DNA of 64,000 nucleotides from Amphiura filiformis (taxonomy: Eukaryota; Echinodermata; Ophiuroidea; Amphilepidida; Amphiuridae): positions 42,939,099-43,003,098 of the forward strand of contig NC_092640.1 of assembly GCF_039555335.1 (NCBI RefSeq), in the 5' to 3' direction. The position numbers were made by a program, and so were the translations under genes. The notes below the pieces were generated by a model. That model was given only the letters and a program-made list of their open reading frames with translations. It searched no databases and was not told the origin of the DNA. This document shows, piece by piece, positions 1 through 45,010 of the stretch; the stretch's first letter is position 1; the number at the start of each line of letters is the position of its first letter.

Positions 1-2037
1 GCTTTATTGTTTTGTTTATTATTTTCTTTCCTTCATGTTCCCAATAATCTCTGCTATGTAAGTGTCGTTTTAAATTTTGGTCAACTTCTTCATTTTAACA
101 TTTCTTTATAGCTTTGCATTCGGCCTAATGCCGATTTTTATTCTAGGCGCGAGCAAAATTAATGCTGTTTTACCGGCCCCGGGATTTTACGCACTGAATC
201 CTCCCATTTTGCCTTCTGAATCATCATCATCTAGAACGTGTGTTAGGCAATGTTATTTTGGAACATTATTATTTTGAATGTTTTTTGCTTTCCTTGGTAT
301 CTTCTGTAGATAGCATTTAGGGCCTTGATTCATACCTCTAATTTTTTTCTTTATGTTTAATGATTTTTTTAATGATATGACTCTCTACCGAAGATAGCAA
401 TCATGCCGTGTTTTATATTAGACATAAAAGTCATTGTTTTTTTTTTTTTTTTTCTTTTTTTTTTTTTTGCTTTATTGTTTTGTTTATTATTTTCTTTCCT
501 TCATGTTCCCAATAATCTCTGCTATGTAAGTGTCGTTTTAAATTTTGGTCAACTTCTTCATTTTAACATTTCTTTATAGCTTTGCATTCGGCCTAATGCT
601 GATTTGTATTCTAGGCGCGCGCAAAATTAATGCTGTTTTACCTGCCCGGGATTTTACGCACTGAATCCTCCCATTTTGCCTTCTGAATCATCATCATCTA
701 GAACGTGTGTTAGGCAATGTTTTTTTGGAACATTAATATTTTGAATGTTTTTTGCTTTCCTTGCTATCTTCTGTAGATAGCATTTAGGGCCTTGATTCAT
801 ACCTCTAATTTTTTTCTTTATGTTTAATGATTTTTTTAATGATATGACTCTCTACCGAAGATAGCAATCATGCCGGGTTTATATGAGACAAAAAAGTCAT
901 TGTTTTGTTTTTTGTTTTGTTTTCTTTTTGTTTTGCTTTATTGTTTTGTTTATTATTTTCTTTCCTTCATGTTCCCAATAATCTCTGCTATGTAAGTGTC
1001 GTTTTAAATTTTGGTCAACTTCTTCATTTTAACATTTCTTTATAGCTTTGCATTCGGCCTAATGCCGATTTTTATTCTAGGCGCGCAAAATTAATGCTGT
1101 TTTACCAGCCCCGGATTTTACGCACTGAATCCTCCCATTTTGCCTTCTGAATCATCATCATCTAGAACGTGTGTTAGGCAATGTTATTTTGGAACATTAT
1201 TATTTTGAATGTTTTTTGCTTTCCTTGCTATCTTCTGTAGATAGCATTTAGGGCCTTGATTCATACCTCTAATTTTTTTTTTTTTTTTTAATGATTTTTT
1301 TTAATGATTTGACTCTCTACCGAAGATAGCAATCATGCTGGGTTTGTATGAGACAAAAAAGTCATTGTTTTGTTTTTTTTTTTGTTTTGTTTTTGTTTTC
1401 TTTTTGTTTTGCTTTATTGTTTTGTTTATTATTTTCTTTCCTTCATGTTCCCAATAATCTCTGCTATGTAAGTGTCGTTTTAAATTTTGGTCAACTTCTT
1501 CATTTTAACATTTCTTTATAGCTTTGCATTCGGCCTAATGCCGATTTTTATTCTAGGCGCGCGCAAAATTAAAGCTGTTTTACCGGCCCCGGGATTTTAC
1601 GCACTGAATCCTCCCATTTTGCCTTCTGAATCATCATCATCTACAAACGTGTGTTAGGCAATGTTATTTTGGAACATTATTATTTTAAATGTTTTTTGCT
1701 TTCCTTGCTATCTTCTGTAGATAGCATTTAGGGCCTTGATTCATACCTCTAATTTTTTTCTTTATGTTTAATGATTTTTTTAATGACATGACTCTCTACC
1801 GAAGATAGCAATCATGCCGGGTTTATATGAGACAAAAAAGTCATTGTTTTGTTTTTTTGTTTTGTTTTGTTTTTGTTTTCTTTTTTGTTTTGCTTTATTG
1901 TTTTGTTTATTATTTTCTTTCCTTCATGCTCCCAATAATCTCTGCTTTGTAAGTGTCGTTTTAAATTTTGGTCAACTTCTTCATTTTAACATTTCTTTAT
2001 AGCTTTGCATTCGGCCTAATGCCGATTTTTATTCTAG
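1..2037 (+). repeat. ~470-bp satellite, array segment 1
   Basis: About 4.3 head-to-tail monomers of roughly 465-480 bp. The landmark TTTGCATTCGGCCTAATG recurs near 114, 582, 1046, 1523 and 2005. Each monomer holds a T/G-rich stretch (TTTTGTTTTG), the block GCGCGCGCAAAATTAATG, a short perfect hairpin (GCTATCT...AGATAGC) and CCGAAGATAGCAATCATGCC. Copies differ mainly in homopolymer lengths and single bases. Short open frames of 60-70 codons recur in every copy but carry no recognisable domain and are by-products of the repeat. The segment stops inside a monomer at TTATTCTAG, where the 29-bp minisatellite begins. Confidence 0.95.
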
Positions 2038-4431
2038 TCTGAAAAAGGGAAAAGATGATCAACAAGGCTGAAAAAGGGAAAAGATGATCGACAAGGCTGA
2101 AAAAGGGAAAAGATGATCGACAAGGCTGAAAAAGGGAAAATATGTTCAACAAGGCTGAAAAAGGGAAAAGATGATCAACAAGGCTGAAAAAGGGAAACGA
2201 TGATCAACAAAGCTGAAAAAGAGAAAAGATGATCAACAAAGCTGAAAAAGAGAAAAGATGATCAACAAGGCTGAAAAAGAGAAAAGATGATCAACAAGGC
2301 TGAAAAAGGAAAAGATGATCAACAAGGCTGAAAAAGGGAAAAGATGATCAACAAGGCTGAAAAAGAGAAACGATGATCAACAAGGCTGAAAAAGGGAAAA
2401 GATGATCAACAAGGCTGAAAAAGGGAAAAGATGATCAACAAGGTTGAAAAAGGGAAAAGATGATCAACAAGGCTGAAAAAGAGAAAAGATGATTAACAAA
2501 GCTGAAAAAGAGAAAAGATGATCAACAAAGCTGAAAAAGAGAAAAGATGATTAACAAAGCTGAAAAAGAGAAAAGATGATCAACAAGGCTGAAAAAGGAA
2601 AAAGATGATCAACAAGGCTGAAAAAGAGAAAAGATGATCAACAAGGCTGAAAAAGAGAAAAGATGATCAACAAGGTTGAAAAAGGGAAAAGATGATCAAC
2701 AAGGTTGAAAAAGGGAAAAGATGATCAACAAGGCTGAAAAAGGAAAAGATGATCAACAAGGCTGAAAAAGGGAAAAGATGATCAACAAGGCTGAAAAAGA
2801 GAAAAGATGATCAACAAGGCTGAAAAAGAGAAAAGATGATCAACAAGGCTGAAAAAAGGAAAAGATGATCAACAAGGCTGAAAAAGGGAAAAGATGATCA
2901 ACAAGGCTGAAAAAGGGAAAAGATGATCAACAAGGTTGAAAAAGGGAAAAGATGATCAACAAGCCTAAAAAAGGGAAAAGATGATCAACAAGCCTGAAAA
3001 AGGGAAAAGATGATCAACAAGGCTGAAAAAGGGAAAAGATGATCAACAAGGCTGAAAAAGGGAAAAGATGATCAACAAGGCTGAAAAAGGGAAAAGATGA
3101 TCAACAAGGTTGAAAAAGGAAAAGATGATCAACAAGGTTGAAAAAGGGAAAAGATGATCAACAAGGCTGAAAAAGGGAAAAGATGACCAACAAGGCTGAA
3201 AAAGGGAAAAGATGATCAACAAGGCTGAAAAAGAGAAAAGATGATCAACAAAGCTCAAAAAGAGAAAAGATGATCAACAAGGCTGAAAAAAGGAAAAGAT
3301 GATCAACAAGGCTGAAAAAGGGAAAAGATGATCAACAAGGCTGAAAAAGGGAAAAGATGATCAACAAGGTTGAAAAAGGGAAAAGATGATCAACAAGCCT
3401 GAAAAAGGGAAAAGATGATCAACAAGGTTGAAAAAGGAAAAGATGATCAACAAGGCTGAAAAAGGGAAAAGATGATCAACAAGGCTGAAAAAGGGAAAAG
3501 ATGATCAACAAGGCTGAAAAAGGGAAAAGATGATCAACAAGGCTGAAAAAGGGAAAAGATGATCAACAAGGCTGAAAAAGGAAAAGATGATCAACAAGGC
3601 TGAAAAAGAGAAAAGATGATCAACAAGGCTGAAAAAGGGAAAAGATGATCAACAAGGCTGAAAAAGGGAAAAGATGATCAACAAGGCTGAAAAAGGGAAA
3701 AGATGATCAACAAGGCTGAAAAAGAGAAAAGATGATCAACAAGGCTGAAAAAAGGGAAAAGATGATCAACAAGGCTGAAAAAGGGAAAAGATGATCAACA
3801 AGGTTGAAAAAGGGAAAAGATGATCAACAAGGCTGAAAAAGGGAAAAGATGATCAACAAGGCTGAAAAAGGGAAAAGATGATCAACAAGTCTGAAAAAGA
3901 GAAAAGATGATCAACAAAGCTGAAAAAGAGAAAAGATGATCAACAAGGCTGAAAAAAGGAAAAGATGATCAACAAGGCTGAAAAAGGGAAAAGATGATCA
4001 ACAAGGCTGAAAAAGGAAAAAGATGATCAACAAGGCTGAAAAGGGAAAAGATGATCAACAAGGCTGAAAAAGGGAAAAGATGATCAACAAGGCTGAAAAA
4101 GAGAAAAGATGATCAACAAGGATGAAAAAGGGAAAAGATGATCAACAAGGCTGAAAAAGAGAAAAGATGATCAACAAGGCTGAAAAAGGAAAAGATGATC
4201 AACAAGGCTGAAAAAGGAAAAGATGATCAACAAGGCTGAAAAAGAGAAAAGATGATCAACAAGGCTGAAAAAGGAAAAGATGACCAACAAGGTTTAAAAA
4301 GAGAAAAGATGAGCAACAAGGCTGAAAAAGGGAAAAGATGATCAACAAGGCTGAAAAAGAGAAAAGATGATCAACAAGGCTGAAAAAGGAAAAGATGATC
4401 AACAAGGTTTAAAAAGAGAAAAGATGATCAA
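2038..4431 (+). repeat. 29-bp minisatellite array inside the satellite
   Basis: About 82 tandem copies of a purine-rich 29-bp unit (GCTGAAAAAGGGAAAAGATG plus ATCAACAAG) with 27-30 bp length variants. Common variants are GAGAAAAG for GGGAAAAG and GTTG for GCTG. The array interrupts a satellite monomer: the monomer reads CGATTTTTATTCTAG up to 2037 and resumes at 4432 with CTAGGCGCGCGC, so CTAG (2034-2037 and 4432-4435) flanks both sides. That is either a 4-bp duplication or microhomology. It is not a CRISPR array, since it has no spacers. Confidence 0.95.
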
Positions 4432-6363
4432 CTAGGCGCGCGCAAAATTAATGCTGTTTTACCGGCCCCGGGATTTTACGCACTGAATCCTCCCATTTTG
4501 CCTTCTGAATCATCATCATCTAGAACGTGTGTTAGGCAATGTTATTTTGGAACATTATTATTTTGAATGTTTTTTGCTTTCCTTGCTATCTTCTGTAGAT
4601 AGCATTTAGGGCCTTGATTCATACCTCTAATTTTTTTCTTTATGTTTAGTGATTTTTTTAATGATATGACTCTCTACCGAAGATAGCAATCATGCCGGGT
4701 TTATATGAGACAAAAAAGTCATTGTTTTGTTTTTTTGTTTTGTATTCTTTTTGTTTTCTTTTTGTTTTGCTTTATTGTTTTGTTTATTATTTTCTTTCCT
4801 TCATGTTCCCAATAATCTCTGCTATGTAAGTGTCGTTTTAAATTTTGGTCAACTTCTTCATTTTTACATTTCTTTATAGCTTTGCATTCGGCCTAATGCC
4901 GATTTTTATTCTAGGCGCGCGCAAAATTAATGATGTTTTACCGGCCCCGGGATTTTACGCACTGAATCCTCCCATTTTGCCTTCTAAATCATCATCATCT
5001 AGAACGTGTGTTAGGCAATGTTATTTTGGAACATTATTGTTTTGAATGTTTTTGGCTTTCCTTGCTATCTTCTGTAGATAGCATTTAGGGCCTTGATTCA
5101 TACCTCTAATTTTTTTCTTTATGTTTAATGATTTTTTTTAATGATATGACTCTCTACCGAAGATAGCAATCATGCCGGGTTTATATGAGACAAAAAAGTC
5201 ATTGTTTTGTTTTTTTTGTTTTGTTTTGTTTTTGTTTTCTTTTTGTTTTGCTTTATTGTTTTGTTTATTATTTTCTTTCCTTCATGTTCCCAATAATCTC
5301 TGCTATGTAAGTGTCGTTTTAAATTTTGGTCAACTTCTTCATTTTAACATTTCTTTATAGCTTTGCATTCGGCCTAATGCCGATTTTTTATTCTAGGCGC
5401 GCGCAAAATTAATGCTGTTTTACCGGCCCCGGGATTTTACGCACTGAATCCTCCCATTTTGCCTTCTGAATCATCATCATCTAGAACGTGTGTTAGGCAA
5501 TGTTATTTTGGAACATTATTATTTTGAATGTTTTTTGCTTTCCTTGCTATCTTCTGTAGATAGCATTTAGGGCCTTGATTCATACCTCTAATTGTTTTCT
5601 TTATGTTTAATGATTTTTTTAATGATATGACTCTCTACCGAAGATAGCAATCATGCCGGGTTTATATGAGACAAAAAGTCATTGTTTTGTTTTTTTGTTT
5701 TGTTTTGTTTTTGTTTTCTTTTTGTTTTGCTTTATTGTTTTTTGTTGTTTTTTTCCTTCATGTTCCCAATAATCTCTGCTATGTAAGTGTCGTTTAAAAT
5801 TTTGGTCAACTTCTTCATATTAACATTTCTTTATAGCTTTGCATTCGGCCTAATGCCGATTTTTATTCTAGGCGCGCTCAAAATTAATGCTGTTTTACCG
5901 GCCCCGGGATTTTACGCACTGAATCCTCTCATTTTGCCTTCTGAATCATCATCATCTAGAACGTGTGTTAGGCAATGTTATTTTGGAACATTATTATTTT
6001 GAATGTTTTTGCTTTCCTTGCTATCTTCTGTAGATAGCATTTAGGGCCTTGATTCATACCTCTATTTTTTTTCTTTATGTTTAATGATTTTTTTAATGAT
6101 ATGACTCTCTACCGAAGATAGCAATCATGCCGGGTTTATATGAGACAAAAAAGTCATTGTTTTGTTTTTTTGTTTTGTTTTGTTTTTGTTTTCTTTTTTT
6201 TTTGCTTTATTGTTTTGTTTATTATTTTCTTTCCTTCATGTTCCCAATAATCTCTGCTATGTAAGTGTCGTTTTAAATTTTGGTCAACTTCTTCATTTTA
6301 ACAAAAAGTCATTGTTTTGTTTTTTTGTTTTGTTTTCTTTTTGTTTTGCTTTATTGTTTTGTT
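4432..6363 (+). repeat. ~470-bp satellite, array segment 2
   Basis: Continuation of the same satellite, resuming mid-monomer after the minisatellite. The landmark TTTGCATTCGG occurs near 4880, 5362 and 5836. Near 6302 a monomer jumps from TTCATTTTAAC straight to AAAAAGTCATTG, skipping most of a unit, which indicates an unequal-exchange or deletion junction. The segment is cut at TTGTTTTGTT by the element at 6364. Confidence 0.93.
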
Positions 6364-7447
6364 AGTCTAGCCGAGCGGCGGCTAGACTCCTGTTTCCCAG
6401 TAGTTTCTTTCTTCTTCTTCTTCTTCTTCTTCTTCTTCTTCTTCTTCTTCTTCTTCTTCTTTCTGTCAACATTTAACATAATTTGCTCTAGCTCCTTTAT
6501 TATTTGACCGATTATGACCAAACTTGGGCACAAGCTCCACTACCCCAGCCTTTACATTTGACATGACCCATTTGGGGTCAAACGTCATGCATGAGTAATT
6601 TTGGCTAAAATGTGATTTTACCAAAAATGCTTCTTCTCCTACAGATTACATGGTACAGTAATGAGATTTATACATTGACCTTGGCTATAGCCGGGGCCTA
6701 TGGGGTCCTCACAGATTTGGGGTCAAAGGTCATTAAGGTGGTATTTCCGGCACATAACCAAATACCTTCAAAATGCTTCTTTTCCTACAGATTCTATGGT
6801 ACAGAGATGCGACTGACACATATGCATTGACATTAGTTGGTGTCTATGGGGTCCTCACAGATTTTGAGTTCAAGGTCATACAGGGGACAAAAATGGTTGA
6901 TTACTGAAAATCACTTTAAAATTCAATATTTTCTGCATATTACGTGCTGTGATCATCCGAATAATGCCAAAAGGGCTCTAGCATTATGTTCATATACGAC
7001 TGTAATCAGATTTGGCTTAAACATGGAGGAGGGGTCTGTTTTGGGGTCAAAAGGGGTAAAATTCTAAAGTTTGTCCGATTGAAATGAAATTTAGTATATG
7101 TGATCTTGATATGATTCAAAATATATTGGAGGTCATGTCAAGGTCAGCAGAGGTCAACCAAAGGTCAAAAGGGGTCAAGTTCTAAAGTTTGTCCAATTTA
7201 AATGAAAATTAGTGTATGTGATCTTGATATGTTTCAAAATATAATGGATGTCATTTCAAGGTCACCAGAGGTCAACCAAAGGTCAAGAGGGGTCAAATTG
7301 CAAAGTTTGTTCAATTTGCATGGAAATTAGTATACGTTATGTGGATATGATGCAAAATATGTGGTGAAGGTCATTTCCAGGTCATCAGAGGTCATTTCAA
7401 GGTCACGGCTAGACTTCGCAGCCTTACTAAGGATGCAATATATCTAG
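6364..7447 (+). mobile_element. Hairpin element A1 (Helentron-like, non-autonomous, complete)
   Basis: A 1,084-bp insertion into the satellite. The 5' end is a hairpin, AGTCTAGCCG-agcgg-CGGCTAGACT (6364-6388), followed by a (CTT)n tract (about 6405-6461). A GGTCA-rich core with roughly 125-bp internal repeats follows. The 3' end repeats one hairpin arm (CGGCTAGACT) and finishes ATGCAATATATCTAG. The intact satellite reads TTGTTTTGTTTATTATT; here it is TTGTTTTGTT, element, TTTATTATT, so two extra T bases accompany the insertion. No protein is encoded. Asymmetric terminal repeats, an internal microsatellite, a CTAG end and TT insertion match Helentron-associated (HINE) or pearl-type elements. 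That assignment is inference. Confidence 0.8.
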
Positions 7448-7540
7448 TTTATTATTTTCTTTCCTTCATGTTCCCAATAATCTCTGCTATGTAAGTGTCG
7501 TTTTAAATTTTGGTCAACTTCTTCATTTTAACATTTCTTT
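7448..7540 (+). repeat. Satellite remnant between two insertions
   Basis: About 93 bp of the satellite monomer (from TTTATTATTTTC to AACATTTCTTT) separates element A1 from the nested complex. It continues on the far side of the nest at 14208 with TTATAGCTTTGCATTCGG. Confidence 0.93.
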
Positions 7541-7645
7541 AGTCCAGCCGAGCAACGGCTGGACTCTTGAATCCCAGTGGTTTCTTCTTAGTCCAGCCGA
7601 GCAACGGCTGGACTCTTGCATCCCAGCGGTTTCTGCTTCTTCTTT

Positions 7646-7698
7646 AGTCTAGCCGAGCGGCGGCTAGACTCCTGTTTCCCAGTAGTTTCTTTCTTCTT
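7646..7698 (+). mobile_element. Hairpin element A3, 5' end only
   Basis: A 5' hairpin (AGTCTAGCCG...CGGCTAGACT) and the start of the CTT tract, identical in layout to A1 and A4. Element C1 is inserted in its microsatellite at 7699. No separate 3' end that would close this copy is seen: only one A-type terminus (11902-11905) is available for the two A-type starts at 7646 and 8729. Its 3' part was probably lost by deletion. Confidence 0.6.
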
Positions 7699-8708
7699 AC
7701 CTAGCCGGGACACCGGCTAGGTCTTGTGATGCTATCGGATCTTTCTTCTTCTGGCAACACGTGCGTGACTTGCCACGTTTCGCCCTAGCTCTCTTATGCT
7801 TTGACAGATTTCAACCATACTTGAGCCAAATGACCACTGGACTAGGTCAAACCTTACATTTGACTTTGACCTGACTCTGACCTTTGACCTTGACCTTATG
7901 GCCAAAAATGTTGATTTAAAAAAAAATGCTACTCCTTCCACAAATTACATGCAATGATCATGTGACTCATGCATATGAAACAACATGTGACAGTGCTTAA
8001 AAATTACTAAAAAGAAATGAGGTCAAAAATAATTAAAAGGTCATTTCCGGTAAAAGTCTGAAAAATTTGTAAAAAATATTCAAAAAATCACTGTCTTTAC
8101 AAATTACATAGCAGAGAGTCGCCATTAGCACACATGCATTGCTACTAGCCAGTGTCTTTAGGATGCCTACAGTTTTGGGGTCAAAGGTCATTAAGGGGTT
8201 ACTTCCGGTCAAAAACCAAAATTATCAAAAATGTTCAAAAAATTTGTATCTCAAAATGTAAACAGACCAGAGTGACATAAACTTCATATATGCATTACTG
8301 TTACCCAATGTATGCACGGTATTGTTATTTTTTTGGTCAAAGGTCATTTAGACGTCATTTCCGGTTTTAAGCTAAATAACTTTAAGAATTTTTATCTCCA
8401 TAACTGAGCATAGTAGATTTATTTTATTTAAACTGTAACAATGCATTTTCGCGGTGTGTATGAGGTTTTTTTTATATTGGGGTCAAAGGTCATTAAGGAG
8501 GTCAAAACGTCAAATTTGCAAAAAAATGTTTAAAATTACGGAACAGTAGCTGTATCTCAGCCTATGGAAGACGGATAAAGCCCCTACATGCTACAGTGAA
8601 GCACCATTAATGGTGTGAGATGTCCATAATAGCCGGTCAAATGTCAAACTTTAAGTTAAGACTGGCATTTCCGGCCCCGGCTCGGTCCAGATCTGTAACC
8701 AGATCTAG
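7699..8708 (+). mobile_element. Hairpin element C1 (third family, complete)
   Basis: 1,010 bp. The 5' hairpin is ACCTAGCCGG-gaca-CCGGCTAGGT (7699-7722), followed by TTCTTCTTC. The core has GGTCAAAGGTCATT motifs (for example near 8179 and 8482). The 3' end has CCGGCT, then a 7-bp stem AGATCTG-taac-CAGATCT (8689-8706), and ends CTAG (8705-8708). The flanks are CTTCTT on the left and TTCTTCTT on the right, so it sits in the CTT tract of an A-type element. The terminal layout matches families A, B and D although the sequence differs. Confidence 0.72.
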
Positions 8709-8796
8709 TTCTTCTTCTTCTTCTTCTTAGTCTAGCCGAGCGGCGGCTAGACTCCTGTTTCCCAGTAGTTTCTTTCTTCTTCTTCTTCTTCTTCTT

Positions 8797-9925
8797 ACAC
8801 AGCCGTGACGTTAGTCACGGCTGTGTCTTTTTTCTTACAGGTTCTTTCTTCTTTCTTTCTTCTTTCTTCTTCTTTCTGCCGACCACTACATTTGCTCTAG
8901 CACTTACATGCTTACGCCGATTTTGACCTAACTTGGTCACAACCATCATTGACCATGCCCCTACATGTCATATGAAACTCGTGGGGTCAAAGGTCACGCA
9001 GGGGTCATAGGGGTCAAAAACGTGATTTCAACTCAAAATGCTTCTTCTCCTACAGATTACGTATGACGGTGACCCCACTTGCACACATGCATTACTATTA
9101 CCCAGTGTCTATGGGGTCCTCACAGATTTGGGGTCAAAGGTCATTAAGGGGTCACTTCCGGTATAAAACGAAAAACCTTCAAAAATTTTTATTTGCTAAC
9201 AAAAACATAGGACAGTAACGGTATGTTCACACATAAATTGTAATAACCCTGTGTATATGTGGTATTTTTGTATTTAGGGTCAAAGGTCATTAAGGGGCCA
9301 CTTCCGGTACAAAACGAAATACCTTTAAAATGCTTCTTCTCCCACAAATTACGTAGGACAGTAACACCACTTGCATACATGCATTGTTATTATCCAGTGT
9401 CTATGGGGTCCTCACAGATTTGGGGTCAAAGGTCATTAAGGGGTCACTTCCGGTATAAAACGAAAAACCGTCAAAAATTTTATTTGCTAAGAAAAACATA
9501 GGACAGTAACGGTATGTTCACACATGAATTGTGGATACCCAATTCATATGTGGTATTTTTTTTTTGGGGTCAAACGTCATTAAGGGGTCACTTCCGGTAT
9601 AAAACGAAAAACCGTCAAAATTTTTTATTTGCTAAGAAAAACATAGGACAGTAACGGTATATTCACACATGAATTGTGGGTACTCAATTCATATGTGGTA
9701 TTTTTTTATTTGGGGTCAAATGTCATTAAGGGGTCACTTCCGGTCTGAGACGAAAAACCTTCAAAATGCCCCTTCTGCCACAAGTAACATAGCAAAGTGG
9801 TGCCACATGCACCCATGCATTGACATTAGCCAATGTCTATGGCCGTTTTCATATATTTTGGGGTCAAAGGTCATTAGGGGTAACAGCACGGCTGTGTTCG
9901 TGGGTTAGACCACAGCTTAGTCTAG
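8797..9925 (+). mobile_element. Hairpin element D1 (fourth family, ~146-bp core repeats)
   Basis: The 5' hairpin ACACAGCCGTGAC-gtta-GTCACGGCTGTGT (8797-8826) has a perfect 13-bp stem and is followed by TTTC/CTTTC simple repeat. The core is about five tandem copies of a ~146-bp module (marks near 9131, 9277, 9423, 9570 and 9713) containing GGGTCAAAGGTCA, a third GGGTCA and CACTTCCGGT. The 3' end repeats the arm CACGGCTGTGT (9887-9897) and a small hairpin GTGG...CCAC. The exact end lies between 9919 and 9925. No ORF of note is present. Tandem cores plus a microsatellite resemble the pearl elements known from bivalves; the relation is inferred. Confidence 0.7.
9131..9162 (+). promoter_or_regulatory. 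Composite DR1-DR5 plus ETS motif cassette (representative copy)
   Basis: Reads GGGTCA-a-AGGTCA (DR1), then five bases, then GGGTCA (DR5), overlapping CACTTCCGGT, the reverse complement of the consensus ETS site ACCGGAAGTG. The cassette recurs with few changes at about 9277, 9423, 9577, 9713, 10264, 10556 and 10702, and in a weaker form at 8179. Motif identity is direct; any binding is inference. Confidence 0.45.
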
Positions 9926-9927
9926 TT

Positions 9928-10909
9928 ACACAGCCGTGACGTTAGTCACGGCTGTGTCTTTTTTCTTACAGGTTCTTTCTTCTTTCTTTCTTTCTTTCTT
10001 CTTTCTTTCTGCCGACCACTACATTTGCTCTAGCACTTACATGCTTGTACCGATTTTGACCTAACTTGGTCACAACCATCATTGACCATGCCCCTACATG
10101 TCATATGTAACTCGTGGGGTCAAAGGTCAAGCAGGGGTCATAGGTGTCAAAAACGTGATTTCAACTCAAAATGCTTCTTCTCTCACAGATTACGTAGGAG
10201 AGTGACACCACTTGCACACATGCATTGTTATTATCCAGTGTCTATGGGGTCCTCACAGATTTGGGGTCAAAGGTCATTAAAGGGTCACTTCCGGTATAAA
10301 ACGAAAAACCTTCAAACATTTTTATTTGCTAAGAAAAACATAGGACAGTAACGGTATGTTCACAAATTAATTTTATTTACTCTGTGCATATGTGGTATTT
10401 TTTTATTTAGGGTCAAATGTCATTAAGGGGCTACTTCCGGTATAAAACGAAATTCCTTTAAAATGCTTCTTCTCCCACAAATTACGTATGACAGTGACGC
10501 TACTTGCACACATGCATTGTTATTACCCAGTGTCTATGGGGTCCTCACAAATTTGGAATCAAAGGTCATTAAGGGGTCACTTCCGGTATAAAACGAAAAA
10601 CCTTCAAAATTTTTATTTGCTAAGAAAAACATTGGAGGGTGATGGTATATTCACACGTGAATTGTGTTTACCTATTGTACATGTGGTATTTTTTCATTTG
10701 GGGTCAAAGGTCATTAAGGGGTCACTTCCGGTCTGAGACGAAAAACCTTCAAAATGCCCCTTTCTGCCACAAATAACATAGCAAAGTGGTGCCACTTGGA
10801 CCCATACATTGACATTAGCCAATGTCTATGGGCGTTTTATATATTTTGAGGTCAAAGGTCATTAAGGCGTCAAAACACGGCTGTGTTCGTGGTCTTAGAC
10901 CACAGCTAA
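9928..10909 (+). mobile_element. Hairpin element D2, abutting D1
   Basis: Same 13-bp-stem 5' hairpin as D1, starting at 9928. It has fewer core modules (near 10264, 10410, 10556 and 10702), the 3' arm CACGGCTGTGT, the palindrome GTGGTCTTAGACCAC and an end CTAA (10906-10909). CTAA still fits the CTRR rule of Helitron-type ends. To the right, TTCTTCTTC continues the host A4 microsatellite. Confidence 0.7.
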
Positions 10910-11589
10910 TTCTTCTTCTTTCTGTCAACATTTAACATAATTTGCTCTAGCTCCTTTATTATTTGACCGATTATGACCAAACTTGGGCACAAGCTCCACT
11001 ACCCCAGCCTTTACATTTGACATGACCCATTTGGGGTCAAACGTCATGCATGAGTAATTTTGGCTAAAAAATTGATTTTGACCAAAAATGCTTCTTCTCC
11101 TACAGATTACATGGTACAGTAATGAGATTTGGACATTTACCTTGGCTATAGCCGGGGCCTATGGGGTCCTCACAGATTTGGGGTCAAAGGTCATTAAGGG
11201 GGTATTTCCGGCACATAACCAAATACCTTCAAAATGCTTCTTTTCCTACAGATTCTATGGTACAGAGATGCGACTGACACATATGCATTGACATTAGTTG
11301 GTGTCTATGGGGTCCTCACAGATTTTGAGTTCAAGGTCAAACAGGGGACAAAAATGGTTGATTACTGAAAATCACTTTAAAATTCAATATTTTCTGCATA
11401 TTACGTGCTGTGATCATCAGAATAATGCCAAAAGGGCTCTAGCATTATGTTCATATACGATTGTAATCAGATTTGGCTTAAACATGGAGGAGGGTCTGTT
11501 TTGGGGTCAAAAGGGGTAAAATTCTAAAGTTTGTCCAATTTAAATAAAAATTAGTATATGTGATCTTGATATGATTCAAAATATATTGG

Positions 11590-11637
11590 AGGTCATTTCA
11601 AGGTCACCAGAGGTCAACGAAAGGTCAAAAGGGGTCA
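11590..11637 (+). promoter_or_regulatory. Chain of five AGGTCA-type half sites in element A4
   Basis: AGGTCA at 11590, 11601, 11611 and 11622 and GGGTCA at 11632, all in one orientation, with spacers of 5, 4, 5 and 4 bases. A1 has the corresponding chain near 7250-7300. These are nuclear-receptor-type direct repeats; function is not shown. Confidence 0.4.
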
Positions 11638-11906
11638 AATTCTAATATTTGTCCAATTTAGATGAAAATTAGTATATGTGATCTTGATATGATTCAAAAT
11701 ATATTGGAGGTCATTTCAAGGTCACCAGAAGTCAACTAAAGGTCAAAAGGGGTCAAATTACAAAGTTTATTCAATTTGAATGAAAATTAGTATATGTTAT
11801 GTGGATATGATGCAAAATGTGGTGAAGGTCATTTCAAGGTCATCAGATGTCATTTCAAGGTCACGGCTAGACTTCGCAGCCTTACTAAGGATGCAATATA
11901 TCTAGT

Positions 11907-11941
<35 letters not shown>

Positions 11942-13638
11942 GTCAACATTTGACATAATTGGCTCTAGCTCCCTAATTATTTGACCGATTCTAATCAAAC
12001 TTGGGCAAAGGCTCCACTACCCCAGCCTTTACATTTGACATGACCCATTTGGGGTCAAATGTCACGCATGAGTAATTTTGGCTAAAAATGCGATTTTTAC
12101 CAAAAATGCTTCTTCTTCAGATTACATGGTAGTGCAATGAGACTTGGTCATCGGCATGGACTATAGATGGGGTATATAGGGTAAACACAGATTTGGGGTC
12201 AAAGGTCATTAAGGGGATTTTTTCTGCACATAAGTATGTACATTTTTGCTGTGTTCTTTTTATACCGTCTTTCAAGGAAAACAACAACACGATTACGCCT
12301 TATTATATTAATGTTAGAGATATGTATGTTATAAAAATCACAATAATTAACTTCATTATGACTAAAGAATTAGCGTATATGGGATCGGAGGCACCAATTT
12401 CAAACACTGCATGTCAGATAACTGTGAAGTCACTTCAAGGTCACGGCTGGACTTCGCAGCCTTCTGAGGATGCAATATATCTAGTTCTTTCTTTCTTTCT
12501 TTCTTTCTGTCAACATTTAACATAATTGGCTCTAGCTCCCTAATTATTTGACCGATTCTGACCAAACTTGGGCAAAGGCTCCACTACACCAGGTTTTACA
12601 TTTGACATGGCCCATTTGGGGTCAGATGTCACGCATGAGTAATTTTGGCTAAAAATGCGATTTTTACCAAAAATGCTTCTTCTTTTACAGATTACATGGT
12701 AGCGCAATGAGACTTGGTCATCGGCATCGACTATAGTTGGAGTCTATGGGGTAAACACAGATTTGGGGTCAAAGGTCATTCAGGCGATGTTTTCTGCACA
12801 TAACCAAATACTTTCAAAATGCTTCCTTTCCTACAGATTACATAGTACAGAGATGAGATTGACACATATGCACTGACATTAGCTGGTGTCTATAGGGTAA
12901 ACACGGATTTTGAGTTCAAGGTCATGAAGGGGTAAAATAGGGTTGATTACTGAAAATCACCTTAAAGTTCACTTCTTCCTGCATATTAAGTTCTGTGATC
13001 ATCAGAATAATGCCAAAATGACTATAGCATTGGGTGCATATAGGGTTATTATCAGATTTGGTTTGAACATGGGGAGGGGTCTGTTTTGGGGTCAAAAGGG
13101 GTAATATTTAAAAGTTTATCCAATTTGAATAAAAATTGTTATTTGTAATTCTAGTATGATTCAAAATATAATGGAGGTCTTTTCAAGGTCACCAGAGGTC
13201 AACCAAAGGTCAAAAGGGGTTAAAATTGAACATTTTATCCAATTTGAATGATTTAAAATGAAAATTGCAATTTCGCAAACCAGACACTTTCTAACGGTGA
13301 TTGTAAAACAATTTGCCTAACTTAACAGCCAATATAACAGAGTTAGGCACTAATGCAGGCTACTCTACACACCGTTAAAAATCATAAGATGTATAGTTAG
13401 GCAAAAATGTGAGAGCATACTGCACTAAACGACAGAGTAGATCACAAGTTATTGATACTGTTACATAATCATCTTATAGACAGCTATTCATAGAAGATAA
13501 TCTATGAATGTAGATTGTCCCGCTTTGGTAAACAGATAATTGTCCTTTCTATTCAGAGGTTCTATTTACTCTTGGTCAGTCATGCATGTTAATAATACTA
13601 AAGAAACTGACTTGATGCACTTTATTTAAATCCCATAC

Positions 13639-13840
13639 AGAGTGCTTGCACGGAAGGTCATTAGTTCAAATCATCCTCCAGACACGCTCCAGAAGATATG
13701 CAAATGCATGGAGTACAAAAGAATTACTTTGATCAATACCAGTTACACAGGTGATTGGTATTGTGCTGCATGCATTTGCATGTCTTCTGGAGCGTGTCTG
13801 GAGGATGATTTGAACTAATGACCTTCCGTGCAAGCACTCT
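13639..13840. repeat. Foldback with 72-bp arms inside B1
   Basis: Left arm 13639-13710 and right arm 13769-13840 are inverted copies differing at one base (GATATG versus GACATG). The 58-bp spacer contains AATACC...GGTATT, extending the fold. Each arm includes AGTTCAAATC, resembling a tRNA B box, preceded by TGCTTGCACGGAAGGTC, so the arm may derive from a tRNA-like sequence. B2 lacks this segment. Confidence 0.8.
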
Positions 13841-14207
13841 ATAGCACTCTATGGCACTGACCGATTACCATCACATTATTAATTTTCTAAAGTCGGACGC
13901 CATGGTACATTTTTCTATTGCAACACATTGCTATATGCTATGAGCTCTCGTATAAGGTATGTACATTTTTGCTGTGTTCTTTTTATACCGTCTTTCAAGG
14001 AAAACAACAACACGATTACGCCTTATTATATTAATGTTAGAGATATGTATGTTATAAAAATCACAATAATTAACTTCATTATGACTAAAGAATTAGCGTA
14101 TTTGGGATCGGAGGCACCAATTTCAAACACTGCATGTCAGATAACTGTGAAGTCACTTCAAGGTCACGGCTGGACTTCGCAGCCTTCTGAGGATGCAATA
14201 TATCTAG

Positions 14208-14276
14208 TTATAGCTTTGCATTCGGCCTAATGCCGATTTTTATTCTAGGCGCGCGCAAAATTAATGCTGTTTTACC
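14208..14276 (+). repeat. Satellite fragment after the nest
   Basis: Resumes the satellite monomer at TTATAGCTTTGCATTCGG and runs to GCTGTTTTACC, where the hAT-like insertion begins. Confidence 0.93.
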
Positions 14277-14588
14277 CATAGACATACCACCTAGACCTAT
14301 TACTGCCCATCCTTTACCACAGCGGGAGGTGAAGCCCCGTATCCAAGGTGATATTGACGGATTGACGGGGTTACTAGACGCAGAGAAATATCGCATACAT
14401 GTTTGACGCGCTCGTTTGCGTGATTACTGCGCCGTTATCGCCGCCGCGTCAAATGCAACATGTTCCATAGACGCGAACATGTCTGCTTGTTTGCGTCCGG
14501 GTATGCGTCCTTGTCAAATTCGTTGCTAAGCAGTGTCGGCTTCACTACGCGAGTCAAAGTTATTGGTCTAGGTTCTCGTTTGTCTGGG
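14277..14588. mobile_element. hAT-like non-autonomous insertion in the satellite
   Basis: 312 bp of unrelated, higher-GC sequence inserted between two copies of GTTTTACC (14269-14276 and 14589-14596). This is an exact 8-bp target duplication, as the intact monomer has one copy. The ends CATAGACATAC and GTTTGTCTGGG form a weak inverted repeat (8 of 11 positions). An 8-bp duplication with CA...TG-like ends points to hAT, but the terminal match is poor, so the superfamily is provisional. Confidence 0.65.
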
Positions 14589-17500
14589 GTTTTACCGGCC
14601 CCGGGATTTTACGCACTGAATCCTCCCATTTTGCCTTCTGAATCATCATCATCTAGAACGCGTGTTAGTCAATGTTATTTTGGAACATTATTATTTTGAA
14701 TGTTTTTTGGTTTCCTTGCTATCTTCTGTAGATATCATTTAGGGCCTTGATTCATACCTCTAATTTTTTTCTTTATGTTTAATGATTTTTTAATGATATG
14801 ACTCTCTACCGAAGATAGCAATCATGCCGGGTTTATATGAGACAAAAAAGTCATTGTTTTGTTTTTTTATTTTATTTTGTTTTTGTTTTCTTTTTGTTTT
14901 GCTTTATTGTTTTGTTTATTATTTTCTTTCCTTCATGTTCCCAATAATCTCTGCTATGTAAGTGTCGTTTTAAATTTTGGTCAACTTCTTCATTTTAACA
15001 TTTCTTTATAGCTTTGCATTCGGCCTAATGCCGATTTTTATTCTAGGCGCGCGCAAAATTAATGCTGTTTTACCGGCCCCGGGATTTTACGCACTGAATC
15101 CTCCCATTTTGCCTTCTGAATCATCATCATCTAGAACGTGTGTTAGGCAATGTTATTTTGGAACATTATTATTTTGAATGTTTTTTTTGCTTTCCTTGCT
15201 ATCTTCTGTAGATAGCATTTAGGGCCTTGATTCATACCTCTATTTTTTTTTCTTTATGTTTAATGATTTTTTTAATGATATGACTCTCTACCGAAGATAG
15301 CAATCATGCCGGGTTTATATGATTCAAAAAAGTCATTGTTTTGTTTTTTTGTTTTGTTTTCTTTTTGTTTTCTTTTTGTTTTGCTTTATTGTTTTGTTTA
15401 TTATTTTCTTTCCTTCATGTTCCCAATAATCTCTGCTATGTAAGTGTCGTTTTAAATTTTGGCCAACTTCTTCATTTTAACATTTCTTTATAGCTTTGCA
15501 TTCGGCCTAATGCCGATTTTTTATTCTAGGCGCGCGCAAAATTAATGCTGTTTTACCGGCCCCGGGATTTTTACGCACTGAATCCTCCCATTTTGCCTTC
15601 TGAATCATCATCATCTAGAACGTGTGTTAGGCAATGTTATTTTGGAACATTATTATTTTGAATGTTTTTTGCTTTCCTTGCTATCTTCTGTAGATAGCAT
15701 TTAGGGCCTTGATTCATACCTCTAATTTTTTTCTTTATGTTTAATGATTTTTTTAATGATATGACTCTCTACCGAAGATAGCAATCATGCCGGGTTTATA
15801 TGAGACAAAAAGTCATTGTTTTTGTTTTGTTTGTTTTTTCTTTTTTTTTTTTTGTTTTGTTTATTATTTTCTTTCCTTCATGTTCCCAATAATCTCTGCT
15901 ATGTAAGTGTCGTTTTAAATTTTGGTCAACTTCTTCATTTTAACATTTCTTTATAGCTTTGCATTCGGCCTAATGCCGATTTTTTTATTCTAGGCGCGCG
16001 CAAAATTAATGCTGTTTTACCGGGCCCGGATTTTACGCACTGAATCCTCCCATTTTGCCTTCTGAATCATCATCATCTAGAATGTGTGTTAGGCAATGTT
16101 ATTTTGGAACATTATTATTTTGAAGGTTTTTTTGCTTTCCTTGCTATCTTCTGTAGATAGCATTTAGGGCCTTGATTCATACCTCTCATTTTTTTTTTTT
16201 TTTCTTCATGTTTAATGATTTTTAATGATATGACTGTCTACCGATGATAGCAATCATGCCAGGTTTATATGAGACAAAAAGTAATTTTTTGCGTACTGAA
16301 TGAATCATCATTGTTTTTTGTTTTGTTTTGCTTTTGTTTTCTTTTTGTTTTGCTTTATTGTTTTGTTTATTATTTTGTTTCCTTCATGTTCCCAATAATC
16401 TCTGCTATGTAAGTGTCGTTTTAAATTTTGGTCCACTTCTTCATTTTAACATTTCTTTATAGCTTTGCATTCGGCCTAATGCCGATTTTTATTCTAGGCG
16501 CGCGCAAAATTAATGCTGTTTTACCGGCCCCGGGATTTTACGCACTCAATCCTCCCATTTTGCCTTCTGAATCATCATCATCTAGAACGTGTGTTAGTCA
16601 ATGTTATTTTGGAACATTATTATTTTGAATGTTTTTTGGTTTCCTTGCTATCTTCTGTAGATATCATTTAGGGCCTTGATTCATACCTCTAATTTTTTTT
16701 CTTTATGTTTAATGATTTTTTAATGATATGACTCTCTACCGAAGATAGCAATCATGCCGGGTTTATATGAGACAAAAAAGTCATTGTTTTGTTTTTTTAT
16801 TTTATTTTGTTTTTGTTTTCTTTTTGTTTTGCTTTATTGTTTTGTTTATTATTTTCTTTCCTTCATGTTCCCAATAATCTCTGCTATGTAAGTGTCGTTT
16901 TAAATTTTGATCAACTTCTTCATTTTAACATTTCTTTATAGCTTTGCATTCGGCCTAATGCCGATTTTTATTCTAGGCGCGCGCAAAATTAATGCTGTTT
17001 TACCGGCCCCGGGATTTTACGCACTGAATCCTCCCATTTTGCCTTCTGAATCATCATCATCTAGAACGTGTGTTAGGCAATGTTATTTTGGAAAATTATT
17101 ATTTTGAATGTTTTTGCTTTCCTTGCTATCTTCTGTAGATAGCATTTAGGGCCTTGATTCATACCTCTAATTTTTTTCTTTATGTTTAATGATTTTTTTA
17201 ATGATATGACTCTCTACCGAAGATAGCAATCATGCCGGGTTTATATGAGACAAAAAGTCATTGTTTTGGTTTTTTTGTTTTGTTTTGTTTTTGTTTTCTT
17301 TTTTTTGTTTTGCTTTATTGTTTTGTTTATTATTTTTTTCCCTTCATGTTCCCAATAATCTCTGCTATGTAAGTGTCGTTTTAAATTTTGGTCAACTTCT
17401 TCATTTTAACATTTCTTTATAGCTTTGCATTCGGCCTAATGCCGATTTTTATTCTAGGCGCGCGCAAAATTAATGCTGTTTTACCGGCCCCGGGATTTTA

Positions 17501-17722
17501 CGCACTGAATCCTCCCATTTTGCCTTCTGAATCATCATCATCTAGAACGTGTGTTAGGCAATGTTATTTTGGAACATTATTATTTTGAATGTTTTTTGCT
17601 TTCCTTGCTATCTTCTGTAGATAGCATTTAGGTCCTTGATTCATACCTCTAATTTTTTTCTTTATGTTTAATGATTTTTTAATGATATGACTCTCTACCG
17701 AAGATAGCAATCATGCCGGGTT
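14589..17722 (+). repeat. ~470-bp satellite, array segment 3
   Basis: About 6.5 further monomers (landmark near 15012, 15497, 15958, 16462, 16941 and 17421). The first monomer and the one near 16,600 share the variants GTTAGTCAATG and AGATATCATTTAGG, suggesting a higher-order relation. The array stops at CAATCATGCCGGG. Confidence 0.94.
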
Positions 17723-25507: not shown

Positions 25508-33286
<7,779 letters not shown>

Positions 33287-37745: not shown

Positions 37746-38345
37746 AAACTTCACGTGAACATAGTGTCATTGCACTTACAAACTTGAGTTCCAATTGTCA
37801 AAAACATGAAAAAGTCTAACACAACATATAGGACTTCTGATGATGATGATGTGTGTCACACATAGAAAATCCAAGGTTATTTGAAATTGTTGTGGTGAAA
37901 GTCATGATTTTAAAGAAGTTAAGATGGAGCTATGTCGTATTATTCTGAATAAGCAACTAGAGTTCTGCCCTTCAAATAAAGCTTTTAACAATTGGAATGG
38001 ATATGTTAGTAACTCTATCTTATTTTCTAACTATTTTCAAAATCATTTTGTCCCCTAAAATTCTCCAATGCAACGTTTTAAAATAGCTGCCATTGGATTT
38101 AGCGCCTTTTGGAACAAAAAATTATTATTTTCTTTTATAGTTATTGTTTTTGTCTTCGCACGTGGGAGGTTAAAGAGATTTGCAATTATTTTTTAAAGAT
38201 ATCCAAAGAATTGTTAGAACTATTCTAGTGGTCCAATGTTATAAGATTGGCAAGGTCACTGCTACTCTTAGGAATATCTGCAATTGAATTTTACATAAAG
38301 CAGCCGTTGGATTTAGCGCCTTTTGGAAACAAACTCTTCATTATT
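37746..38345. other. Unassigned sequence
   Basis: AT-rich. The phrase 'CCATTGGATTTAGCGCCTTTTGG' type block occurs twice (near 38090 and 38304), a short local duplication. No gene seen. Confidence 0.4.
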
Positions 38346-39018
38346 ATAGCCATAGTGCAGGTGTGCTATCTACTGAAGATAGCACACAGCAAATGTATTC
38401 ATAGTGCAGGTGTGCTATCTACTGAAGATAACACACAGCAAATATAGCCATGGGGCAGGTGTGCTATCTACTGAAGATAACACACAGCAAATATAGCCAT
38501 GGGGCAGGTGTGCTATCTACTGAAGATAACACACAGCAAATATAGCCATGGGCAGGTGTGCTATCTACTGAAGATAACACACAGCAAATATAGCCATGGG
38601 GCAGGTGTGCTATCTACTGAAGATAACACACAGCAAATATAGCCATGGGGTAGGTGTGCTATCACTGAAGATAATACACAGCAAATATAGCCATGGGGCA
38701 GGTGTGCTATCTACTGAAGATAACACACAGCAAATATAGCCATGGGGCAGGTGTGCTATCTACTGAAGATAACACACAGCAAATATAGCCATGGGGCAGG
38801 TGTGCTATCTACTGAAGATAACACACAGCAAATATAGCCATGGGGCAGGTGTGCTATCTACTGAAGATAACACACAGCAAATATAGCCATGGGGCAGGTG
38901 TGCTATCTACTGAAAATAACACACAGCAAATGTATCCACAGGGTATGTGTGTTATCTACTGAAGATAACGTTAACACAGAGCAAATATAGCCACAGGGCA
39001 ACTGTGCTGAAGATAACT
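38346..39018 (+). repeat. 49-bp hairpin minisatellite, array 1
   Basis: About 13 copies of a 49-bp unit (TAGCCATGGGGCAGGTGTGC, TATCTACTGAAGATAACACA, CAGCAAATA). Each unit holds an inverted repeat GTGTGCTATCT-actga-AGATAACACAC. It is very homogeneous in the middle, with diverged edge copies. Confidence 0.94.
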
Positions 39019-39486: not shown

Positions 39487-39816
39487 TTACGTTCGTGGTA
39501 TGTTCGGCAAATTGTTGCGTCGACAACTGACTCTGGGGTTAGCTGCAAGTTCTCTTTGAACCGCTGCAATATTTTCAGCTGAACGGCCAGTTCTTGGACG
39601 TCCGCTCCGTGCTTTGCATCTATTCATCACACTTCCGAGGCTGTGAAAGTTGTTCGTATTTAGAGTTATGGTAGGTTTCGGTGGGATCTTACGTTCGGGA
39701 AACGAATCCGAAATTGACGCTGCACTACCAAAAAAATTTCTGTTCTTAACTAAGTATACCTCTGCCATAAAGGTCCTCTCTTGTGTTGTGAATTGCTTGA
39801 TCTTATCACCTTGCAA
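39487..39816 (-). pseudogene. Transposase N-terminal fragment (DUF4817-type HTH, mariner/Tc1-like)
   Basis: A 109-codon frame reads FTTQERTFMAEVYLVKN, then NFHSLGSVMNRCKARSGRPR, then ENIAAVQRELAANPRVSCRR and ends near LPNIPRT. This is the helix-turn-helix, GRPR-linker, second helix arrangement seen at the N-terminus of mariner/Tc1-related transposases and DUF4817 proteins. The DDE catalytic domain that should follow is absent: the frame stops and neighbouring frames show nothing related. No inverted ends were found around it. It is a decayed fragment; family assignment is from remembered motif similarity. Confidence 0.6.
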
Positions 39817-40231
39817 ACCTATATATATTTAGAAATAAGCCACGCAGTCACAAAATGCACGAAGGCCTATTTAAAATTCAAATATTGCACCAGATGAAAC
39901 CTTTGTAATTGTGTAATTTTTATGCTAATTGTTGGTCAATGACAGGAGTGAAGTTCGAGTACATGACAAGTAAATGGGGGTTAAAATCGATTGTTTTTCT
40001 TTCATGCATGTAAAACAATCATCACTTTTTAAAGATAAGCCAAAACGTGTTTACCAATTACATGTATGACTGACGCATGTATGCCGTCCTCCTAGCAATC
40101 GGACACATACCATTGAATTACGTGTGGACAAAGTGATTTTTGACCCTCGGACGTAAAACTAGCACCATTTTCTTAATTTTGTTTCTTTTGCTTTCATTTC
40201 TTCATCACACTACTTTTAGAAATATATACAT

Positions 40232-41659: not shown

Positions 41660-44600
41660 AATTAATAATAATAATAATACACAGATTTAGAGAACGCTTT
41701 TTAAATGAAGAAACAAAGCGCTATGGAAAAGGAAAAATGCAAAAGGGAGGAAACATTAGGTGAAAAGGTGAGTGTTTAGGTTCTTTTTGAAAGTTTGGAC
41801 ATTGGGAGAGTCACGAATGTGGAAAGGCAAGCCATTCCATAGAACAGGGGCAATGATGGAAAATGCTCTGTCACCAGCCAACTTGTGGGATCTTGGAATG
41901 GAAAGACAAGTGGCAGCAGTAGAGCGCAAAGAGTACCCAGAATGACGGGTGTGAAGGATGAAGGACAGGTATTCAGGTGTAGATGAAGCAAGAACCTTAT
42001 AAACATGGACGAGAGTGCGGAACTGGACACGTTTAGCAACTGGAAGCCAGTGCAGACTATGAAGCAAAGGAGAAGTATGCGTATAGTTTGGTTCTCTGAA
42101 AATGAGTCTGGCGTACTTGTTCTGGAGAAGCTGTAGGCGGGTGAGGTTTTTCTGGGAGATGCCATTAAGCAAGGAGGAGCAGTAATCAATCTTGGACAGG
42201 ACAAGAGTCCTAACCGCATTGGTACACGCATCAAAACTAAGAAAACGCCTAATCCTCCAATATTGCCAATCTGCCAGTTCAAAGTTTTGGACAAATGAGC
42301 AACATAACTGGACATCTTCATGTCATGGTCAAAAATGACCCCTAAATTCTTTATGGATGAAGATACAGAGATCTCCAACCCATCCAAATAAAGGGTGAGA
42401 TGTTTGAGATTAATGTAGTGATAATCAGAAAAGGCAGCAAAAAACTCAGTCTTCGCCATATTGAGCTTGAGCTTGTTACTGGTGAGCCAAGCTTGTAGCT
42501 CATGGATGCAGTTGGAAAGTTTGAACAAGGCACAAGCTGCATCACCCGGGATGGCAGGATTAAAGGTGATAATCAGCTGAACATCATCAGCATAGAGGTG
42601 ATATTGGAGGCCATGATTACGAATAATGTTCCCGATGGCATGAGTGTAGTAGGTGAACAATATCGGGCCAATGACCGATCCCTGGGGGACACCATAAGGC
42701 AGATGGACCTTATCAGAATAGCATCCCTTCACAAAAACCTGACTACTGGGATTTTCAAGGTAGGACTGGAACACTCTATGGGCATCACCAATGATGCCAA
42801 ATTCTTGGCTCAACCGCTGCAACAGAATACGGTGATCCACCGTATCAAATGCGGCAGTCAAGTCCAGTAACACCACAAAGACAGTCCTGTTGTCATCAAT
42901 AGCTCTGAGAATGGTATTATGAGTGCTGTCTCGGTGCTGTGAGCAGCCCGATACGCTGACTGCAAAGGCTCAGCCAGTTTATTGCACTCGACATACTCGG
43001 TGAGCTGAACACTGACAACCTTCTCAATCAGTTTGCCAACAAAGGCCAGATTGGAGACAGGCCGGTAGTTCGAGAGCTGCTGTTTGTCAAGGGACACCTT
43101 TTTTAGCACAGGCGTGATGGTAGCCCGACGTAGTTCAGCAGGAAAGCAGCCAGAAAGGAGGGAGTTATTGACAATCTTAGTAAGAATAGGGAGAAAAATA
43201 TGGATATGTTTCTTTAACAACCAGGTCGGGAGGGGGTCTAGGTCACATGACTTGGAGGTCCATGGCGTTATTATTTTAGATAACTCTTCTTCAGACACAG
43301 CTTCAAATTTGTCAAACGAGCATTGCAATGTGCTAGATGTAGAACATTGAGAAGTGGTGTTTGAAGAGGTAGCATGGACAGCATCAACATCAGCACGAAT
43401 TGTTTCTACTTTACCAATGAAATATTTACAGAAATCATTAGCTAATGTAGCTGGAGAGCTACTATCTGGAAGGTCACGTGAGGTCTTATTCAAAAGAGCA
43501 TTTATAGTCTTATACTTATACATGTCCTTAGTGTTACAATTGAGTAGCCTTTCATTATAAAAAGATGCTTTCTCTTTGCTAATGGTTGTTGCAGCTTCCC
43601 TCTGGGAATCAATATAGGCTTGACGGTCAACTTCAGTCCGTGTTTTACGCCAGCGCCGTTCACTCCGCCTACGTAAGCGTCGCGCATCCTGAACAGTTTG
43701 ATTAAACCATTCAGGTTTGATGCGAACGGTACATGGTTTTTCTTTGGCAGGTGCATGGGTCTCAAGTACTTGGCTACAGGTTTTGTTATAAAACTGGACA
43801 AGGTCTACATGTGCCTCATCCATGGAATCATCAGTGGTATTGAGCTTGAACACAAGGTCTTCCTCAAAAGCAACAGGATCAATATTGCGGAAATTACGCG
43901 CTTTGTACACATTGGTGGCTCTGACAATTGACTGCTTCTTAAAATCAATGTCACAAAGTATGAGAAAATGATCAGAAACATGAACAGGGTGGATGTCATA
44001 TGGCTTGACAACATGATCATTCTCTTTAACCATAACCAAATCCAAAGTGTGTCCCTTTACATGAGTGGGCTCATCAACAAGTTGCTCGAAACTAAGAGAC
44101 TCAAGGATAGCAAGCATAGATTTGGTGTCGTTTTCATTGGGCATGTCCATATGGATATTGAAGTCACCCAATACCACTGATCGTCCAGGAAGGAGGTCAA
44201 CTGCATTGAGAAATATCTCAAAATCATGAAAGTATTGAGGCATTTGCTTTAAAGATGATGATCTATATACAACAACAAAGTAAAGGTTCTGGTTCTTCAT
44301 ATAAAATAATGAATGTTCAAAAGTGTCACTTTTAGGTAGTTTCTCTTCGCAGAATTCGAGACTCACTTGGCTCTTGAAAACACAGGCAGTTCCTCCACCG
44401 CGATGGACAGAGTTACGGGGTACACCCAAAAATGAGTAACCGGGAGGACACATTTGCCCAGTGATAACACGATCATCAGAACGGAGCCAAGTTTCTGTGA
44501 GGAAGAAGAAGTCCAAGTCCGCATTCAAGATTATATCAGTTATTGTGTCCCCTTTATTGCCCACAGACTGGGCATTCCATAGACCTAACTTCATGTTGCT

Positions 44601-45000: not shown

Positions 45001-45010
45001 AAGCTAACAC

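Follow-up and report, generated by a model that had tools for sequence, protein, structure and literature searches.

Nested hairpin elements of probable HINE/DINE-1 type in a satellite array of the ophiuroid Amphiura filiformis

Results

A nest of hairpin elements in a 480-bp satellite

The window analysed here is a 64,000 nt stretch of the genome of the ophiuroid Amphiura filiformis (contig NC_092640.1 of assembly GCF_039555335.1, positions 42,939,099 to 43,003,098 of the forward strand), and its left part carries a nest of transposon-like elements, each headed by a DNA hairpin. The nest spans 7540–14208 and consists of seven 5′ hairpin heads and six 3′ ends, every one on the plus strand. It lies in an array of a 480-bp satellite, which occupies 1–2037, 4432–6303 and 14589–17722 (no strand assigned) and also hosts a solitary, uninterrupted element just upstream of the nest (A2, 6363–7448, plus strand). 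The eight elements or heads all share one orientation. A preliminary description of this DNA, which gave the element type no name, had read the hairpins as opening brackets at 7541, 7590, 7646, 7699, 8729, 8797 and 9928, and the 3′ ends as closing brackets (last base of CTAR) at 8708, 9925, 10909, 11905, 12484 and 14207; all of these are present in the sequence where it placed them. As the elements begin and end in T, their boundaries are exact only to within a run of Ts.

The outermost element, B1 (7540–14208), has its head at 7541–7565 and a CTT tract that is split into a left part (7581–7589) and a right part (12485–12507), the latter leading into the body (12508–14207). Its pair of subterminal inverted repeats (subTIRs) is AGTCCAGCC / GGCTGGACT. 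B2 (7589–12485) lies in the B1 tract and is built in the same order, with a head at 7590–7614, left and right tract parts at 7630–7645 and 11906–11940, and an internally shortened body that runs to 12484. A3 (7645–7698) is an extra family-A 5′ head with the left part of a CTT tract and no tail; over its 53 bases it is identical to the head of A4. C1 (7698–8709), in the A3 tract, has its head at 7699–7722, a 3′ subTIR with one mismatch at 8677–8686 and a CTAG end at 8708. It is followed by A4 (8728–11906; head 8729–8753, tract parts 8769–8796 and 10910–10922, CTAG end at 11905). Within the A4 tract is D1 (8796–9926), which has an intact CTTT-type tract of its own near 8842–8877, and abutting it at a single TT is D2 (9927–10910), with an intact CTTT-type tract near 9973–10010 and a CTAA end at 10909.

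The solitary A2 copy falls outside the span of the preliminary description, which did not use it as a control. Its head is at 6364, its 3′ subTIR at 7407 and its CTAG end at 7447, and it is bounded by T on both sides. The (CTT)n tract of A2 (6409–6461; 17.7 copies and 100% by Tandem Repeats Finder, TRF) is intact, and marks the place where the nested copies are interrupted; the surrounding positions 6404–6463 contain 22 TT and no AA dinucleotides.

Ends and internal repeats of the elements

All eight heads (seven in the nest, plus that of A2) fold into a perfect hairpin, of 10 bp in families A, B and C and 13 bp in family D. An exact copy of the right hairpin arm lies near the 3′ end in families A (CGGCTAGACT), B (CGGCTGGACT) and D (CACGGCTGTGT). 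The C arm (CCGGCTAGGT) recurs near the 3′ end with one mismatch in 10; apart from the hairpin, the window contains no other match of this quality, where 0.72 would be expected on average by chance. Families A and B differ by a C/T change in the left arm, and this is matched by G/A changes both in the right arm and in the distant 3′ copy. A T precedes each of the eight heads and follows each of the seven tails.

Both strands of the window were scanned for a hairpin with an exact 8-base copy of its arm and CTARTT within 8 kb, giving 43 rows (redundant by offset). Of these, 39 fall in the nest or the solitary copy and cover seven of the eight heads, the C head being absent because of its arm mismatch; the remaining four lie elsewhere and look spurious. 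Among 20 mononucleotide shuffles of the sequence, 18 gave no rows and two gave one.

A 3′ hairpin is predicted before the terminal CTAR in all seven tails (folded with no shuffle control); it is clear in C1 and D2 and differs in shape in D1, and in A and B it is weak or broken by a mismatch within the stem. A CTT or CTTT tract follows the head in families A, B and D, and C1 has only a short CTTTCTTCTTCT. Central tandem repeats were listed by TRF in A2 and A4 (118 bp) and in D1 and D2 (146 bp), with none listed in C1, B1 or B2; in the published accounts available, such repeats are not required of every HINE/DINE-1 member.

Order of nesting and in silico excision

Written by family, with heads in upper case and tails in lower case, the nest reads B B A C c A D d D d a b b; a single A head is left unmatched. 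Orders with at most one unmatched token made up 29 of 20,000 random token orders, and one of the 180 distinct orders of the tail labels. Nested insertion in this bracket order, as first proposed, is borne out by the matching of the subTIRs, by excision in silico, by the bracket test and by 13 empty copies of the outer site (see below), and the family-specific pairs of ends date the order of events. That A3 alone lacks a closing end is likewise confirmed, the window holding three A heads (including that of A2) and two A tails.

Removal of D1 and D2 restores an A4 that is identical to A2 at 1023 of 1060 aligned bases (96.5%), with 26 gap columns in four runs. In the first 220 columns of this alignment, which were viewed directly, the only difference at the D1–D2 junction is one of tract length (21 columns). 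The corresponding check on B1 and B2 succeeded in part: the succession of head, tract and A2-like body start is restored, but an internal part of B1 is missing from B2, which lowers the overall alignment of the two to 79.8%.

The tails of B2 (12237–12484) and B1 (13960–14207) are identical at 247 of 248 bases and the 5′ parts of their bodies at 268 of 285, which makes the pair a mosaic. A tandem duplication of the tails alone was considered, and the pattern suggests that exchange or template switching may have occurred. D1 and D2 are identical at 904 of 977 aligned bases. Their origin as a tandem dimer made at insertion is unlikely, given 73 differences in 977 bases against 37 in 982 for the bodies of A2 and A4, with the caveat that gene conversion could blur such divergence. 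Within the B1 body, the region 13640–13850 contains an inverted repeat (about 13650–13700 against 13780–13850) which, judged by eye, is perhaps an inserted miniature inverted-repeat transposable element (MITE) or foldback element.

The B mosaic and the identical A3 and A4 heads, which have a CTT tract and C1 between them, are what would be expected if unequal exchange or slippage between CTT tracts had shuffled and duplicated heads and tails, making the bracket order partly a product of recombination; the tails in particular suggest some exchange. Against this, beyond every tail come the rest of the tract and then the body of the next outer family, the legal order found only once among the possible tail orders, and 13 satellite units carry an exact empty version of the outer site. 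Such rearrangement may account for A3 or for the B tails, but not for the whole nest, and as a general explanation it is improbable.

Insertion sites and empty sites

The outer insertion site of the nest, AACATTTCTT|TATAGC, is found uninterrupted 13 times in the satellite, as is the site of A2 (also 13 times). When joined, the outer flanks of the nest show 96.3–100% identity to the 13 satellite units over 160 bases. Past 160 bases the right flank carries another insertion (14277–14596), and there it matches only itself. This insertion of about 320 bases lies between 8-base direct repeats (GTTTTACC, 14269–14276 and 14589–14596), and the array has 10 copies of its site without the insertion; the 8-base duplication, judged by eye, suggests a cut-and-paste element.

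At both outer sites (nest and A2), the occupied site has two Ts more than the empty one, as expected for elements of the form T...T inserted between Ts. Insertion between two Ts without target duplication was thus found at two sites, each with 13 empty counterparts, although a 2-bp TT duplication is indistinguishable from terminal Ts by sequence alone (PMC2374699). The same sites bear on the quality of the assembly. The region is repeat-rich, and a collapse or misjoin could have produced a false nest, but the junctions lie at T|T, the T count is equal at the two outer sites tested, and the copies have diverged (A2 from A4, and D1 from D2) in a manner unlike misassembly of identical repeats; an artefact of this kind is very improbable. 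The nest is genuine, well ordered and unusually clean, and its elements are of a known kind.

T density, the microsatellite tracts and orientation

In the preliminary description each inner element sits in the CTT/CTTT tract of its host. This holds for B2, the A element, C1 and D1 but not for D2, which lies outside any CTT tract, its junction with D1 being a single TT (9926–9927). In all 12 tract pieces examined TT is present and AA is absent. We infer that all elements are co-oriented because the TT of the tracts lies on one strand only, which would allow entry in one direction.

Four tract events were scored: B2 in B1, the A element in B2, C1 in A3 (with A2 as proxy) and D1 in A4. If every TT or AA of the host is taken as equally likely to be hit, the product of the tract fractions is 4.5e-5; when sites are limited to those with at least 8, 9 or 10 T in 16 bases, it becomes 0.010, 0.067 and 0.35, respectively. 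These products use present-day fractions and are not formal p-values; tract lengths may have differed at the time of insertion. The T content per 16 bases is 9 at the outer site of the nest and 12 at the site of A2. It may therefore be enough for the elements to favour T-rich TT sites, and recognition of the microsatellite as such need not be invoked, because restriction to T-rich sites raises the product to 0.067–0.35. The earlier proposal of targeted insertion into a microsatellite carried by the elements themselves is right in that four events lie in tracts, but as regards targeting it goes beyond this evidence.

A stronger form of that proposal is that the transposition machinery recognises (CTT)n or (CTTT)n as such, and that the tract has been kept since it catches further copies. 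It would accommodate the at least four nested events in tracts, with the low product obtained under equal likelihood, and the presence of the tract at the same place in all four families. The title of Coates 2010, on a lepidopteran Helitron-like superfamily that disrupts (GAAA)n microsatellites, also points in this direction. The low product is lost, however, once sites as T-rich as the outer one are considered (0.067) or those with 10 of 16 T (0.35), and the calculation itself relies on A2 as proxy for the A3 tract and on present-day tract lengths. A2 and B1, the insertions that lie outside other hairpin elements, went into the T-rich 480-bp satellite rather than into a CTT tract, and D2 sits at the end of D1. 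In addition, the both-strand scan of the window found no hairpin elements in the 648-bp (AAGA)n tract at 29301–29948, which offers 315 TT sites on its minus strand. Recognition of the microsatellite as such is, on balance, unlikely.

Other features of the window

The 480-bp satellite is interrupted at 2037–4437 by about 83 copies of a 29-bp repeat. A second satellite, with a 49-bp unit, occupies 46129–50660, and a similar unit is found at 38345–38969; tandem repeats of about 1120 bp, approximately 98.5% identical, lie at 56759–62834. On the minus strand, 41776–45083 contains open reading frames (ORFs) like those of long interspersed nuclear elements (LINEs), in two frames, with matches to the Exo_endo_phos endonuclease (E 1.1e-11) and the RVT_1 reverse transcriptase (E 8.7e-22). 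The Pfam scan covered 16 of the 31 window ORFs of at least 95 amino acids (aa), the 15 left out including six from the (AAGA)n tract, and among those 16 the LINE-type ORFs alone scored above the cut-off. Two weak minus-strand matches fall below the Pfam cut-off: one tetraspanin-like, at 27534–27830 (E 0.0017), which is possibly an exon, and one to the DUF4817 helix-turn-helix domain, at 39490–39828 (E 0.00053).

Discussion

The nest very probably consists of non-autonomous rolling-circle transposons of Helentron/Helitron2 type (HINE/DINE-1-like) lodged in a eukaryotic satellite array. HINE/DINE-1 or related elements carry subTIRs with an inverted repeat next to them, a microsatellite and a stem-loop at the 3′ side (PMC4067079, PMC7492417, PMC2374699, PMC3630058, PMC4344730) and prefer to insert at T-rich or TT sites (PMC4067079, PMC7492417, PMC2374699); DINE-1-like elements have been described from sea urchin and molluscs (PMC4067079). 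The elements of A. filiformis resemble HINE/DINE-1 elements (INE-1, mini-me) in having an inverted repeat next to the 5′ subTIR, a microsatellite on the left side, tandem repeats in the core and a 3′ subTIR and palindrome, and in inserting between Ts in T-rich DNA with no target duplication (PMC4067079, PMC7492417, PMC2374699). Matching subTIRs, the 3′ stem-loop, the left microsatellite, T|T insertion and central tandem repeats were all found here. They differ from described HINE/DINE-1 elements in forming a nest seven heads deep and in their CTAR-T 3′ end.

Several points weigh against this assignment. The 3′ ends here are CTAR, whereas DINE-1 is described as lacking CTRR (PMC2374699), and the microsatellite is CTT/CTTT rather than the GTCY type that is common in the cited HINE/DINE-1 families. 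No Rep/helicase is encoded, as none of the 19 listed ORFs of at least 70 aa between 6300 and 14300 has a Pfam match above the cut-off. Independent events of nesting in a tract number only about four. As the defining feature of a HINE is its Rep/helicase partner, the elements are best termed HINE-like, on their anatomy.

Other transposon types share some of these features. In Fusarium, FoHeli (Helitron2) has hairpins at both ends, asymmetric inverted repeats and self-insertion, as well as copies in which a single 3′ terminus is combined with several short 5′ termini of <200 bp (PMC5148889); FoHeli1/2 differ in inserting between TNAT and T and in ending with ATTTT, and no microsatellite is mentioned for FoHeli in the available part of that account (PMC5148889). 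Lepidopteran Hel-2 has a 5′ subterminal inverted repeat followed by a variable microsatellite ((CTGT)n), a 3′ hairpin and a CTAG end, but its flanks are A and T, rather than T and T as here (PMC4344730). MuTAnT Mutator-like elements also have a microsatellite target, in their case TA, but by family name are DDE-type cut-and-paste elements, and a target tract carried by the element itself is not reported in the portion of that account available (PMC4486113). A canonical Helitron (Helitron1: 5′ TC, 3′ CTRR, A/T insertion) was rejected since, although CTRR is present, the 5′ ends are TAGTC, TACAC or TACC and insertion is at T|T. A cut-and-paste MITE was also rejected, as the 3′ repeat lies about 30–40 bases internally and there is no duplication beyond the ambiguous Ts. 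A pattern search for relatives gave no matches in viral and prokaryotic contig collections, which says little given their scope.

Each element has a 5′ hairpin with a second copy of its arm near the 3′ end, a CTT/CTTT microsatellite, a core, a 3′ palindrome and the CTAR-T end. In the mechanism proposed, it would insert between two Ts, with no target duplication and a preference for dense T. The microsatellite is the T-densest stretch of each element, with TT on one strand only, so that later arrivals would often land there and always in the orientation of the host. B1 received B2, B2 in turn received an A element, and C1 and D1 came to lie in the A tracts, with D2 added to D1. The A3 head could be a relic of an A element inserted into another A, of which two 5′ ends and one 3′ end were kept. 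By analogy, A3 resembles those Fusarium Helitrons in which several short 5′ termini share a single 3′ terminus; these have been attributed to self-insertion and a later transposition that starts at the outermost 5′ end and stops at the first 3′ end (PMC5148889). The same A3 sequence, indistinguishable here from such a relic, would result if DNA had been deleted between two A bodies or if CTT tracts had slipped.

The nest would mostly follow from the preference already known in such elements for T-rich sites, here supplied by their own CTT repeat, and the only modest novelty is that a strand-polar tract offers a reason why nested copies share one orientation. A more ambitious proposal is that HINEs provide themselves with a specific landing strip by maintaining a strand-polar microsatellite, where co-oriented arrivals would bring new tracts, nests would grow head-to-tail and mobile multi-headed composites would arise. 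This we consider doubtful. No statement that HINEs prefer their own microsatellite for insertion was found in the available parts of the literature, where one may still exist.

The locus provides a worked example of self-insertion of the HINE type, in which an intact copy serves as control, empty copies of the site lie to either side and each family has its own pair of ends. A T-dense microsatellite with its Ts on one strand may offer a simple and testable reason both for nesting in one orientation and for extra 5′ ends. Should tract-specific targeting prove to hold across the genome, it would give a function to the microsatellite long noted in HINE/DINE-1 elements.

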